A stretch of DNA of 64,000 bases from Branchiostoma floridae. Lineage: Eukaryota; Chordata; Leptocardii; Amphioxiformes; Branchiostomatidae. The notes beneath the pieces were generated by a model. That model had not been told where the DNA came from, did no database searches, and was given only the letters and a program-made list of their open reading frames with translations. The position numbers were made by a program, and so were the translations under genes. Shown here piece by piece: positions 4,065 to 59,310 of the stretch (position 1 is its first letter; the number at the start of each line of letters is the position of its first letter). The DNA is taken from NCBI RefSeq assembly GCF_000003815.2, contig NC_049988.1:20194700-20258699 (forward strand). Reading direction: 5' to 3'.

Positions 4065-5092
4065 GTACAGTTCTATGGAGGTATCTACAAGTTCCTCCGC
4101 TGACCGCACAGGACGGACCCTAACAGTGACATGGTCTTCTTACATTTTTCTTGCTCGGTGTCCAGACTAAAACAATGTTGACATATTCCGGTGGGTAACT
4201 TTTCTTCAGTTGGATAACAGTTTATTTTCTCATCTTATCATGTAATTTACCAACCCATATGAACTTAAATGCTAAAAAAAGGTAATTCAAATGTACATTT
4301 GTGTTGATTCAGTTCCCTTCAGTTGATCTCAGGCTGTCCGACATTACCTACTTTATTGTAGACGAAGCACCATTGTACAGTTCTATGGAGGTATCTACAA
4401 GTTCCTCCGCCGACCGCACATGACGGTACCCTAACAGTGACATGGTCTGCTGACATTTTTCCTGTATCATCTTCACGTGAGCAAAACTCAGCGCGAACCT
4501 CCATCCCCCCGCCCTTTCCTTGGAGCGCCGGCGGGTAGAATACGGGGTTCTATAGAACATAGTTCTAACGTTCTATGCGGGCTCGAAAGTTCGATTTTGT
4601 GTTAAAATTGTGCTAGTTTTTTTTCACTCTTATTCGCTCCGTACAGTTCTATCGAGGCATCTACAAGTTCCTCTGCTGAGCGCACAGGACGGTACCCTAA
4701 CAGTGACATGGTCTGGCGGCACTTTTCTTGTATCATATTCACTTGAGCAAAACTCAGCGCAAACCTCCATCCCCCCGCCCACTCCTTGGACCGCCTGCGG
4801 GTAGAATACGGGGTTCTATAGAACATAGTTCTAACGTTTTATGCTGGCTCGAAAGTTCGATTTTGTGTCAAAATTGCTAGTTTTTTTCACTCTTATTTGC
4901 TCCGTACAGTTCTATCGAGGTATCTAAAAGTTCCTCCGCCGACCGCACAGGACGGTACCCCAACAGTGACATGGTCTGGCGGCACTTTTCTTGTATCATC
5001 TTCACTTGAGCAAAACTCATCGCGAACCTCCATCACCCCACCCTCTCCTTGGACCGCCGGCGGGTAGAGAAGGGCGTTCTATAGAACATAGT
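4065..5092 (-). pseudogene. Tandem copies of the CHST last-exon 3' end
   Basis: Reading the minus strand, the C-terminal part of the sulfotransferase exon (from STRRRSKE through WRFALSF, MIQEKC, MSLLGYR, SAEELV to SIELY) is repeated downstream of the real exon with a period of about 265 bp (landmark gaacatagttctaac at 4555, 4821, 5084). Copies lie at about 4870-5092, 4602-4826 and 4319-4560; a further fragment lies near 4065-4160. The copies start inside the exon, so they lack its splice acceptor. The frame is kept except for one TGA (replacing GGA) in the copy nearest the gene, but copies 4602-4826 and 4319-4560 have lost the SIELY-stop and read on (SIELYGAN, SIELYNGA). Each unit begins with the perfect palindrome gttctatagaac or a one-base variant. 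Confidence 0.85.
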
Positions 5093-5164
5093 TCTAACGT
5101 TCTATGGGGGCTCGAAAGTTCGATTTTGTGTCAATATTGCTAGTTTCTTCACTCACTTGTTTGC

Positions 5165-7571
5165 TCAGTACAGCTCTATCGAGGCATCTACAAGTTCCTC
5201 CGCTGACCGCACATGACGGTACCCTAACAGTGACATGGTCTGGCGGCACTTTTCCTGTATCATATTCACTTGAGCAAAACTCAGCGCAAACCTCCATCCC
5301 CCCACCCTCTCCTTGGACCGCCGGCGGGTAGAGAACGGGGCCCGGCCGGGGCCCGACGCGTTGGTGTTTCCGCGGATCCATCTGTAGACGGCCTTGTGCA
5401 GAGGCAGGCCGAGCGACTTGTGCAGCTTTCTCATCTGTTCTACGGGTGATGCGGCCACGTCCTCGAACCGCAGTAGCGTGTAGTGTCCAACTTGAGAAAG
5501 GAACAGATCACAGAGGTAAAAAGCTTCCGGAAGATTCTACGAAGCACATACCGAGACAGCATCTCAACTACTGAAGTATGGAATACAATAAAACAAAACT
5601 TCGGTCCATACGAAGACCTCTTAACGTCGACAGTAAAGTACAGAAAAGACAACTGACTTGAAGAGGTAAGGCTTTGGGTTATGGTTACAGCCAAAACTAT
5701 CATGCAGGTAACCTAGGAAAGAAGAAAGAGGGGTAGACAACGGAAAAGATGGGAGAATAATATTTGAGAACTTGGATGGGCATGACACACAGGATCACAA
5801 AGAAAAAAAAACCCGAGAAGGATGCAGACAGCTGGTTGCCAGATATTCTGTGGTGCCCCCAACGGTCAAATAGTTAGGCTAAGAGAGATGACATGATGGT
5901 GGCTTAATACCGGTCACATTAGGCGAAAATCGATCGGACGACGAGTCTGCGAGCTCTAAATTACGAGGAGGCATGACCCTGATGCCGACGAAGAAATAAA
6001 TAAACGGCTGAGTTCCCCCCTTCCCGTCAGGGTCATGCCTCCTCGTAATTTAGAACTCGCAGACTCGTCGTCCGATCGATTTTTACTACATACGGGGTAT
6101 TATTTACGGGGGTAGCTTACGGCTAACGCTACCTGTTGTGGCGTTCTTAAGGTTTCTCAAGATCGACTCGCAGAGCCCCTCTACTTCGCCCTCGTCGATG
6201 TCGTCATCAGAGAACGTGGTGACGTTGTCCTTCCTGTGATGACGTAAGGCGAGGCGTGACGCAATGGTTCCCCGCGGGTCTCGCACCAGGTGGACAACTC
6301 GGAGATCCAAGTCAAGGTCACGTTCGATCGGTGCAAGGTCACTTATGTTTGCCAGGCGAATCGTCTTGATTACCGTGAAGCGTCGAGTTCTGCATGCTCT
6401 ACCCAAAACCTCTGCCACAAGCTCCTCAGGAATCGGACATCTTAAACCGGGTTCGGAATCGTTCCTGGCCAGTTTCTTAAAACTTTTGCACAACTTGAGA
6501 AGGACCTTAGACTTCGTGGACGCGCCAAAAGTCTTGTTGTTCAGGTAAAACGGCATAACGTTCACGATGTTCTTAAAGTCACAGGCCAAGATTCCTTGAA
6601 GTAATCTTAACTGTTCTGCTCCTGAGACGTCGTGAGTCTTGTTGGGGTGGTTCTTTAAGGCCCAGAGAGGTTCGAAGACGTAGAAGACGTCAGGATGCTG
6701 GTTGAACAGCTCGCCTACAAAGGACGATCCGCTCCGCATCTGGGTGAAAATCAGGACTGCGGTTCTGGGCGGGCGATGAGCAGATATCCTCGGCTGATCG
6801 GACGGTACGCTGTGAGAGGTAGATGAAAATTAATCTACCGTAGCCTAAGATAGTATCAAAAGTTGGCAGAGTTTGGCTAATTATGTTTGGCTACATAATC
6901 AATTGGGCTACACTGTTTAGCAAGGCCGACTTCACTCCTCTGGCAGCTTTTAATGCTATCTTAGGTTACCGTAGCATCTGCTTGGAGATTAGATGAAGAT
7001 CGTCTCAACATTATCACTCTATCAATTGACAACTGATATGTGTATATTACACTGTGAACCACGTCGTTATCATATATTACACTGTGAACCGCGTAGTAAA
7101 CATCGCATAAAATATGACTGTAACGTTATATGTGGAAACACGTTTTGTGACCGCATCTGTGAACAACGACACTTACCGCTGCAGTACAGTGTGAACTGTC
7201 GTTGATGAAGACGACAGACGGTGACGTTCAAAATGTCGGTAGATATAAAGCTGTCGTTGTGTGAAAACAGAGTGACTTGCTCAGAGTCTGGCAATTGCCT
7301 CTTCCCTCATTACCTCAATAAAAATGATCCTGCATGCCTATTTGAGCTTTCATGAATAAATAAAGGTTGGAAAAAGTCTCTTAATTCAGTGACGTACCAA
7401 CCTGAGGAAACTATTGATGGACGGTAAGATGTTTACTTCCCGATAGGCTGAAAGGCTCGTAGTTCTTCCTTTAGGCAGATGAAACACCACAATGTTGTAA
7501 TACAGGAGAACGAAGATTCCGGACACTAGGGGCAACGCAAGGAGCTGCCTCGTTTGTCGTAGTGACAACAT
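5165..7571 (-). CDS. Carbohydrate 6-O-sulfotransferase (CHST family), 3 exons
   Basis: Golgi type II membrane enzyme expected to transfer sulfate from PAPS to a 6-hydroxyl of Gal, GlcNAc or GalNAc in glycans. Exons: 7571-7402, 6809-6133, 5490-5165; donor and acceptor phases fit exactly and give 390 aa, the usual family length. Exon 1 has a short cytoplasmic end and a hydrophobic anchor at residues about 9-29. Exon 2 carries the 5'-phosphosulfate loop RSGSSFVGELFNQH (residues 82-95) and the 3'-phosphate motif LVRDPRGTIASR (231-242). Exon 3 has LLRFEDVAASP and the C-terminal MIQEKC...MSLLGY...SAEELV...SIELY signature. These motifs are diagnostic for the Gal/GalNAc/GlcNAc 6-O-sulfotransferase group (CHST1-7); I cannot assign the exact member. 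Intron 2 holds a palindromic MITE, intron 1 another MITE. Degenerate copies of the last exon follow downstream. Confidence 0.93.
5906..6100. mobile_element. Palindromic MITE (family A), copy 1
   Basis: Long terminal inverted repeats: tcacattaggcg and cgatcggacgacgagtctg on the left pair with the end of the element, through aggaggcatgaccctga. A second copy with the same structure lies at 43776-43965. Small loop between the arms (gccgacgaagaaat...). Lies in intron 2 of the sulfotransferase gene. No coding capacity. Confidence 0.9.
6831..6991. mobile_element. MITE family B copy with 9-bp target duplication
   Basis: Termini taatct...gcttggagatta. Flanks are gatgaaaat (6822-6830) and gatgaagat (6992-7000), a 9-bp direct repeat with one mismatch. 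The interior shares aagatagtatcaaaagttggcag with the fuller copy at 19464-19636. The left end has lost the ccaagcagatc segment. Lies in intron 1 of the sulfotransferase gene. Confidence 0.85.
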
Positions 7572-58700: not shown

Positions 58701-58897
58701 TAGAAGCCTATAACACTGCCATAGAAGGGGCATCGATATACTATATGGTGTATGTGTATGACAGGTATGTTGATACCTGGAGAGACCTGAAGATCACCCT
58801 GCCTAACCATTACTATACACTGTGTCGTTCCATGTGCCATGTGGCACGTATGTACCGACCACTGCTTGATGCTGTGTGTGCTCATGTAGAGGTTTAG
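55779..58897 (+). CDS. BTB-BACK-Kelch protein (KLHL-B), tandem duplicate of KLHL-A, 5 exons
   Basis: Probable CUL3 adaptor. Exons 55779-56006, 56594-56854, 57249-57388, 57562-57765 and 57994-58897 join in phase to 578 aa, with the same intron positions and phases as KLHL-A. The BTB exons 1 and 2 are almost identical to KLHL-A at the nucleotide level over long stretches (from ggtttcttggaac in exon 1; from gagttacatctactcggg in exon 2), while the Kelch exon has diverged strongly ([29 protein letters not shown], [16 protein letters not shown]). The last repeat is complete here: [20 protein letters not shown], then [20 protein letters not shown] and a stop. Exon 2 uses a donor 3 bp longer than KLHL-A (ACAGAG/GTGGGT). 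Degenerate tandem copies of its 3' coding end follow; aataaa at 59735. Confidence 0.93.
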
Positions 58898-59310
58898 ATA
58901 CAACAAACAACGATGACTTCTTGATTGAAGTTAATCGGATTTGTAGCATACGGTTCCATGTACCATGTGGCACGTATGTACCAACCAATGCTGTATGTGC
59001 TCATGTACAGGTTTAAAATGCAACAAACTAAGATGACTTCTTGATTGAAGTTAATCGGATTTGTAGCATACGGTTCCATGTACCATGTGGCACGTATGTA
59101 CCAACCAATGCTGTATGTGCTCATGTAAAGGTTTAGATGTAGCATTACAATGACTTCTGTGGCGAAAGTTCATTGGATTTGATGTGACGTTTCTGTATAT
59201 TTGAGAGCATATAAGGCGACACTGCTTGGCAAGGCATATGTAGCGTATGGTACCATGTGGCATGTATGTACCCACCACAAAATACGGACACATAAAGGCT
59301 TAGATTTGAC
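58898..59310 (+). pseudogene. Tandem copies of the KLHL-B 3' coding end
   Basis: The segment starting gttccatgtgccatgtggca inside the last exon (58827) recurs at 58953 and 59073 (spacing 126 and 120 bp) and in degenerate form near 59245. Each repeats the codons for RSM-(C/Y)-HVARMY-(R/Q)-P plus the following 3' untranslated sequence (gatgacttcttgattgaagt, taatcggatttgtagcatac). The real stop codon lies within the first unit, so the copies are presumably 3' untranslated sequence. Confidence 0.88.

Follow-up and report, generated by a model that had tools for sequence, protein, structure and literature searches.

Four of the eight genes modelled in the window, as we call the whole 64,000-nucleotide stretch of the Branchiostoma floridae genome analysed here, have their stop codon inside a tandem array (CHST, C1orf50, a B4GALNT-like gene and KLHL-B), which raises the question of how short repeats come to sit on the coding ends of genes.

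Arrays over Stop Codons

An earlier note had described arrays at the ends of these four genes; TRF recovers all of them, and the stop codon lies inside each. The features concerned are the following:

5165..5489, minus strand: last coding exon of CHST, stop 5167-5165 within the first array unit
4065..5341, minus strand: CHST stop array, full extent, with units 5341-5083, 5075-4820, 4813-4554 and 4547-4375 and a remnant at 4153-4065
11200..11397, minus strand: last coding exon of C1orf50, stop 11202-11200
10149..11287, minus strand: C1orf50 stop array, full extent, seven recognisable units
41500..41654, minus strand: last coding exon of the B4GALNT-like gene, stop 41502-41500
40483..41545, minus strand: B4GALNT-like stop array of 50-bp units, with further degenerate copies beyond
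58826..59354, plus strand: KLHL-B stop array, with coding unit 58826-58951 (stop 58895-58897), units 58953-59071 and 59073-59181 and a remnant at 59250-59354

By TRF, the CHST array occupies 4375-5340 (263 bp × 3.7), with degenerate copies pushing it out to about 4065, and the other three occupy 10503-11291 (C1orf50, 165 bp × 4.8), 40483-41544 (B4GALNT-like, 50 bp × 20.9) and 58827-59135 (KLHL-B, 120 bp × 2.5). The Sulfotransfer_1 match of CHST reaches model position 254 of 255, and in C1orf50 the exon adjoining the last coding exon matches DUF2452 (6.9e-38). In the B4GALNT-like gene the final 14 codons as well as the stop are contributed by the array itself, and a comparison with solved structures gave no help in placing this C-terminus. 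A survey of sulfotransferase genes was not used as evidence: The window's CHST is absent among the matches listed (about 150 of 190), and adjacent matches extend into introns, so that partial copies are not separable.

All four arrays extend beyond the stop codon instead of sharing one open frame and are hence not in-frame protein repeats. The first canonical poly(A) signal 3' of the stop (AATAAA or ATTAAA) sits past the TRF-defined array in every case (CHST 4357, C1orf50 10068, B4GALNT-like 40348, KLHL-B 59735), and the spare copies probably belong to 3' untranslated sequence. In three of the four stop arrays identity declines with distance from the gene: stepwise in C1orf50, whose units are 100, 99.4, 93.9, 92.9, 89.5, 85.6 and 77.2 percent identical to the coding unit, likewise stepwise in KLHL-B, and overall in CHST, whereas the B4GALNT-like array is without decay by distance. 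The stop is retained in all five C1orf50 units compared and lost in CHST spares 2 and 3.

The consensus units of different genes share no sequence, which bears out the earlier note on this point and rules out one dispersed transposon family; a genome search of the assembly with the C1orf50 array gave no second copy, only this locus. At the stops of PTTG1IP-like 1 (17521), PTTG1IP-like 2 (about 34660), the C-type lectin gene (about 35955) and KLHL-A (54751), neither TRF nor self-BLAST detected an array, and the window contains no Rfam family at gathering threshold and no tRNA.

Arrays over Splice Sites

Three arrays in the window, absent from the earlier note, span internal 3' splice sites (23923-24214; 23234-23444 with 21202-21421; 45140-45345). 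They lie in a gene with a transmembrane exon, which we take to be PTTG1IP-like, and in the B4GALNT-like gene:

21150..21265, minus strand: transmembrane exon of the PTTG1IP-like gene, working copy
21328..23423, minus strand: three spare 5' parts of this exon (23423-23364, 23315-23256, 21387-21328), each with a splice acceptor
21422..23233, minus strand: hAT-like insert within the transmembrane-exon array, with inverted ends and an 8-base target duplication
23874..24214, minus strand: array of the PTTG1IP-like cysteine-rich exon (23986-23874), with two acceptor-spanning spares upstream
45020..45345, minus strand: B4GALNT-like internal exon, with its first part repeated in degenerate form upstream in the intron (45345-45278)

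The exon-edge build is the same at stops and at splice sites: In both, it is the non-coding side that holds the spares. The four copies of the transmembrane exon show 12 silent and 0 changing states, with pN of 0 in six of six pairs and pS of 0.18-0.56. Shortly past the shared part the spares hit stop codons, so the rest of the protein is not encodable by them. Capture of this exon from a paralogue was considered and rejected, as a protein search gave seven matches, four of them in its own array and the best elsewhere 57% identical, and a DNA search of the genome returned this locus alone.

Gaps are present in the assembly (three in the window; 28,892 N within the first 200 kb of the sample), and misassemblies are described for an earlier lancelet assembly in the portion of PMC2632668 consulted; the arrays might accordingly be errors in which two haplotypes of a highly heterozygous animal were stacked. 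We consider this highly improbable: The copies diverge beyond the allele level, as the above pS values far exceed the silent diversity of 0.0397 quoted for B. floridae (PMC12862219, in part), one array harbours a transposon-like insert that has matching ends and is flanked by a target duplication, three arrays decay in a graded manner, and a similar lancelet array in PGBD5 was upheld by re-sequencing according to the sections of PMC3902484 drawn on here.

Placement of Arrays in the Window and in the Genome

The window was compared with a random sample of 25 × 10 kb of the assembly (513,431,437 bases, 431 contigs, C1-C19 of 17-35 Mb). Before placement was counted, units of less than 30 bases were dropped, as were in-frame protein repeats, recognised by our own reading of the translations (window, one of nine TRF arrays; sample, 10 of 33). 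The C-type lectin gene contains a 42-bp in-frame coding repeat (37020-37331), likewise absent from the earlier note, a protein repeat excluded from the edge arrays. The 11 arrays of the window test set comprise eight from TRF and three degenerate ones from self-BLAST; self-BLAST clusters with copies more than 600 bases apart (6926-8842, 26264-26956, 38622-39505, 43442-44870, 51280-53509 and 61216-63995) and a low-complexity cluster (41657-41847) were dropped. Placement in the window rests on our approximate gene models with 36 exons, and exon density in the sample was derived by scaling a codon-usage scan that had been calibrated against the window, where it made 34 calls for these 36 exons.

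In the window, seven of 11 arrays fall on coding edges versus 1.5 expected under random placement (P = 1.4e-4), with four over a stop versus 0.18 expected (11 local arrays placed randomly, P = 2e-5) and three on splice edges versus 1.34 expected (P = 0.14); these P values are post hoc, since the window owes its selection to its stop-array pattern. In the sample, four of 23 non-protein-repeat arrays lie on a coding edge versus 1.54 expected (P = 0.07), namely on one acceptor, two donors and one apparent stop, which was taken from an open frame in an exon without a Pfam family match (L015). A further array among the 23 (L029, 5021-5720, 4 × 173 bp) starts at an exon end at which stop and donor are not distinguishable and was not scored; scoring it would give five of 23 (P = 0.02). 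The genome-wide check for enrichment at stop codons that the earlier note had proposed has thereby reached the stage of a small pilot, with one sampled stop versus 0.17 expected (P = 0.16). The edge excess is clear only in the window selected for the pattern, and that of the sample is suggestive.

The earlier proposal that a process at the 3' ends of transcripts, such as cleavage, termination or R-loops, seeds arrays at stop codons draws support from the stops of four of the eight window genes and from the apparent stop of the sample. We nevertheless regard it as quite improbable, since acceptor and donor arrays of like build are present in the window and account for three of the four edge arrays sampled, and since stops show no significant excess beyond the window. 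The same acceptor and donor arrays dismiss a link to terminal exons alone: With splice-edge arrays existing as well, the earlier reading is too narrow. Its other proposal, a genome prone to short duplications with copies tolerated in 3' untranslated sequence, holds in part. Duplications are many and the spares lie in probable 3'UTR, but tolerance by itself would not explain why arrays sit at edges when introns and intergenic DNA offer more room, should the window excess hold.

Codon Structure of Differences among Copies

The variation among copies is codon-structured, which is new in this analysis. Over 11 edge arrays, with the most degraded remnants left out, the variant states, which are only partly independent of each other, number 25, 17 and 66 at codon positions 1, 2 and 3; 64 are silent and 44 changing, whereas neutral copies predict 28 silent. 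Shifted-frame controls gave 20 and 17 silent versus 25.6 and 26.3 expected, and the sample's four arrays by themselves gave 13 silent and 12 changing versus 6.5 silent expected (P = 0.005). Judged from these codons, most differences between spares and gene are silent, as if the spares had largely been under protein-level selection in the past. The 64 silent states also exceed the 44.6 expected from one coding plus one neutral lineage (P about 1e-4), so plain duplication and decay are insufficient for the whole array set. Individual arrays vary: C1orf50 has a silent-to-changing ratio of 7:1, and no silent excess is seen in KLHL-B (2:5), the B4GALNT stop array (4:5), the cysteine-rich PTTG1IP exon (2:4) and the sampled array L021 (2:4).

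Random placement would mean that arrays are noticed when they happen to touch exon edges and that their codon structure reflects changes in the working exon only. The edge excess of the sample, not being significant, is compatible with it, as are the silent excess over the one-lineage expectation, which shrinks without the PTTG1IP transmembrane array (52 vs 39.2, P = 0.006), and the sample's four arrays (13 vs 10.3, P = 0.19). The window's excess at coding edges of any sort and the PTTG1IP transmembrane array (P = 7e-5 versus the one-lineage expectation, as one of 11 arrays tested) argue against it, and we hold it to be doubtful, if a possibility to be reckoned with.

Alternatively, the spare copies in introns and 3'UTRs could themselves be under selection at the amino-acid level over millions of generations, either as an evolving reserve for the exon end, with array contraction turning spares into the real end and a very large population allowing defective ones to be purged, or because some spares are expressed as alternative ends. 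The purely silent differences of the PTTG1IP-like transmembrane exon, its pS far above allelic diversity with no close paralogue donor found, and C1orf50 with its 7:1 ratio and retained stops fit this proposal, and the effective population size of about 1.7 million given in the part of PMC12862219 used here would make weak selection effective. However, frequent contraction should, by our reasoning, have removed the silently diverged copies, several arrays are without constraint, CHST spares 2 and 3 lack the stop, and the PTTG1IP spares soon reach stop codons. Selection on the spares thus appears unlikely.

We favour, with a probability of roughly 0.6, minisatellites of the amphioxus 'mirage' type. 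A short segment across an exon edge would be duplicated head to tail; because it crosses the edge, one copy would remain on the exon and the others would land on the non-coding side, be it the 3'UTR past the stop, the sequence upstream of an acceptor or that downstream of a donor, and a segment of whatever length could duplicate with the reading frame unbroken. The arrays would turn over, and the coding unit most likely seeds its array repeatedly: Copies would be renewed from it, directly or via exchange between chromosomes, with much of their variation having arisen during the coding phase, and older copies would decay afterwards.

Relation to Known Systems

Mirage minisatellites are known at amphioxus exon–intron borders, with examples in Adh3, the globins BflGb6 and BflGb9 and PGBD5, and troponin C cited in passing; the parts of PMC3087553 and PMC3902484 on which we draw describe units of about 10-170 bases, unrelated between genes, head to tail and straddling an exon edge, with length and somatic instability. 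The arrays studied here share the tandem minisatellite-like units inside a gene, the single working copy and the spares on the non-coding side, and the three splice-site arrays fit the description in spanning an exon–intron boundary. In contrast, the four stop arrays straddle the edge from coding sequence to probable 3'UTR, the CHST unit of 263 bases exceeds the quoted lengths, and codon-structured differences find no mention in those parts of the two accounts. By their sequence, the arrays appear to be of the mirage kind, extended from exon–intron borders to stop codons. A globin survey for known mirages gave 12 matches, whose positions alone reveal no array.

Internal tandem duplication has been proposed for globin intron gain (PMC3087553, in the part consulted). 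The Rogers model and later cases, in which such duplication yields new introns, likewise copy splice signals along with exon sequence, but here no new intron is evident and the spares sit within existing introns or 3'UTR. VNTRs in 3' untranslated regions are built of head-to-tail units with degenerate outer copies. The stop arrays resemble them in both respects, yet their unit holds coding sequence together with the stop, so that contraction or expansion can spare the gene end.

A lancelet peculiarity known at splice borders thus reaches gene ends as well, and seemingly dead exon fragments differ from their gene chiefly at silent positions. It can now be tested whether edge arrays are no more than passive scars, give rise to new introns and C-termini, or form a reserve that recombination keeps fit, and gene annotation in lancelets can be misled by exon copies in introns and 3'UTRs.

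As a separate observation, a dispersed short repeat matches the CHST unit in its UTR part (at least 42 matches of 73-96 bases, at least 39 of them outside the CHST locus). A mobile element may hence already have been in place when the CHST segment was duplicated.

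Tandem arrays at stop codons and splice sites

According to the earlier note, tandem arrays start in, or supply the end of, the last coding exons of four genes, and in all four of these the stop codon indeed lies inside the array. The repeated units are composed as follows:

CHST: ~175 coding and ~85 UTR bases
C1orf50: ~28 codons, the stop and UTR
B4GALNT-like gene: 50 bases, holding the last 14 codons and the stop
KLHL-B: the last 23 codons, the stop and UTR

As the first canonical poly(A) signal lies beyond the TRF-defined array in each case, the spares, i.e., the copies additional to the one joined to the gene, are probably located within the 3'UTR. 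Identity to the coding unit drops steadily with growing distance in C1orf50 and KLHL-B and drops overall in CHST (100, 92.9, 93.4, 90.8, 87.6 percent), and the outermost copies in these three arrays are remnants missed by TRF; the same check on the B4GALNT-like stop array revealed no trend. In C1orf50 (11123-11202 and following units), the differences among the first units are concentrated in the ~20 bases directly after the stop, the remaining UTR part being near-identical. In the CHST unit, the half lying in the UTR (4554-4906) contains a palindrome-like stretch and matches a dispersed repeat: among the matches listed, 39 of 42 lie elsewhere in the genome (73-96 bases).

The arrays are not limited to gene ends, since self-comparison and sequence reading reveal the same build at internal exon starts. 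Two such arrays lie in the PTTG1IP-like gene; their units comprise a splice acceptor plus the beginning of an exon, and the full exon is reached from the last unit only. Two further features belong here:

45345-45278: in the B4GALNT-like gene, an older single copy upstream of one exon
23233-21422, - strand: insert of ~1.8 kb that splits one PTTG1IP-like exon array; its inverted ends match each other, and the target duplication measures 8 bases

The insert looks hAT-like; it arrived later than the formation of the array.

For the transmembrane exon of the PTTG1IP-like gene there are three spares, and the 20 residues encoded by each are those of the real exon; across all pairs of copies, pN is 0 and pS 0.18-0.56. 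Because the silent diversity of B. floridae is ~0.040 (PMC12862219), these copies are not simply neighbouring alleles. The spacer between copies 1 and 2 resembles that between copies 2 and 3, insert aside, and a genome DNA and protein search for a close paralogue of the exon found none. Either the spares have been under amino-acid selection or they stem from exchanges beyond reconstruction here. A second, diverged PTTG1IP-like gene (33562-34662, +) shows 50% identity over the cysteine-rich exon; no array was found over its stop.

Placement relative to chance

When the 11 local arrays of the window were placed at random, 1.50 were expected to span a coding edge (stop, splice site or other edge) and 7 were seen (P 1.4e-4); for stops alone, 4 were seen vs 0.18 expected (P 2e-5), and for splice and other edges alone there was no excess (3 vs 1.34, P 0.14). 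The window had been chosen for this pattern, and we therefore turned to samples of the genome: 25 systematic 10-kb pieces with 217,416 called bases, in which arrays with units of at least 30 bases were counted. They hold 33 arrays, of which 10 are in-frame protein repeats; 4 of the 23 others span a coding edge vs 1.54 expected (P 0.07), with 1 vs 0.17 at stops (P 0.16):

L014: an acceptor array and a donor array, next to EF-hand exons
L021: array over the donor of a thyroglobulin-1 exon
L015: array over an apparent stop; its exon matched no Pfam family

Consequently, edge arrays exist elsewhere in the genome; their enrichment and any preference for stops, the latter being what the earlier note had suggested checking genome-wide, are not proven by this pilot. 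The L015 exon with its stop in the array seems to have its acceptor duplicated as well, immediately upstream (600-700). In another sample (L029, 5021-5720), four 173-bp units start where a probable coding exon ends, the edge being a stop or a donor.

Codon structure of the copies

We counted variant states between the working exon and its spares as silent or changing in 11 edge arrays.

Silent:changing states per edge array
Window, stop arrays: CHST 15:13; C1orf50 7:1; KLHL-B 2:5; B4GALNT stop 4:5
Window, splice arrays: PTTG1IP transmembrane 12:0; PTTG1IP cysteine-rich 2:4; B4GALNT internal 9:4
Samples: L014 acceptor 6:5; L014 donor 2:2; L015 3:1; L021 2:4

Altogether, 64 states are silent and 44 changing, vs 28.1 silent expected if spares were neutral from birth and 44.6 if one of two copies stays coding (P about 1e-4). 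By our own reasoning, the latter, one-lineage expectation is the upper limit for a duplicate-and-decay history on one chromosome. It is also exceeded upon removal of the PTTG1IP transmembrane array (52 vs 39.2, P 0.006) and in the stop arrays alone (31 vs 22.9, P 0.02; neutral 14.4, P 5e-6); the four sample arrays alone give 13 silent vs 6.5 neutral (P 0.005) and 10.3 one-lineage (P 0.19). In shifted-frame controls on the same alignments the excess is gone (20 and 17 silent vs 25.6 and 26.3 expected).

Relation to mirage minisatellites and proposed mechanism

The splice-site arrays of the window match the description of lancelet mirage minisatellites, tandem units straddling exon-intron borders, in PMC3087553 and PMC3902484, whereas the stop-codon arrays are a variant of that type. 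The accessible parts of the literature on lancelet minisatellites and mirages and on stop-codon or last-exon repeats yielded no earlier stop-codon example; one may exist in the Adh, retinol dehydrogenase or presenilin work. Mechanistically, a duplication of any length across an exon edge would leave one exon intact and deliver the extra copy into non-coding sequence. Growth and shrinkage of the array would be harmless to the gene while the units preserve an intact gene end, and the coding unit probably serves as a recurrent source of copies, which would result in codon-structured variation and graded decay. High silent diversity and gene-conversion tracts of mostly <200 bases, reported for amphioxus (PMC12500494), may favour short exchanges at arrays.

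Gene models and other repeats

The window corresponds to C10:20194700-20258699 in the genome searched (513 Mb, 431 contigs; C1-C19 each 17-35 Mb). We modelled 8 genes with 36 exons in it, combining a codon-usage scan with open reading frames and splice signals. Pfam matches comprise sulfotransferase, C-type lectin, kelch (weak) and, for C1orf50, DUF2452; the name B4GALNT is based on a weak glycosyltransferase match and a non-significant B4GALNT1 match (E 0.46). PTTG1IP is a provisional name, and so are the other names without Pfam match, some of them adopted from the earlier note. Three further repeats were observed:

1-1161: array of 115-bp units continuing past the left end of the window, with no coding edge recognised
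37020-37331: coiled-coil-like repeat of the C-type lectin gene that keeps the reading frame and adjoins an assembly gap (36906-37005)
60003-60667: on the 3' side of KLHL-B, an old repeat (~184 bases) that has become degenerate
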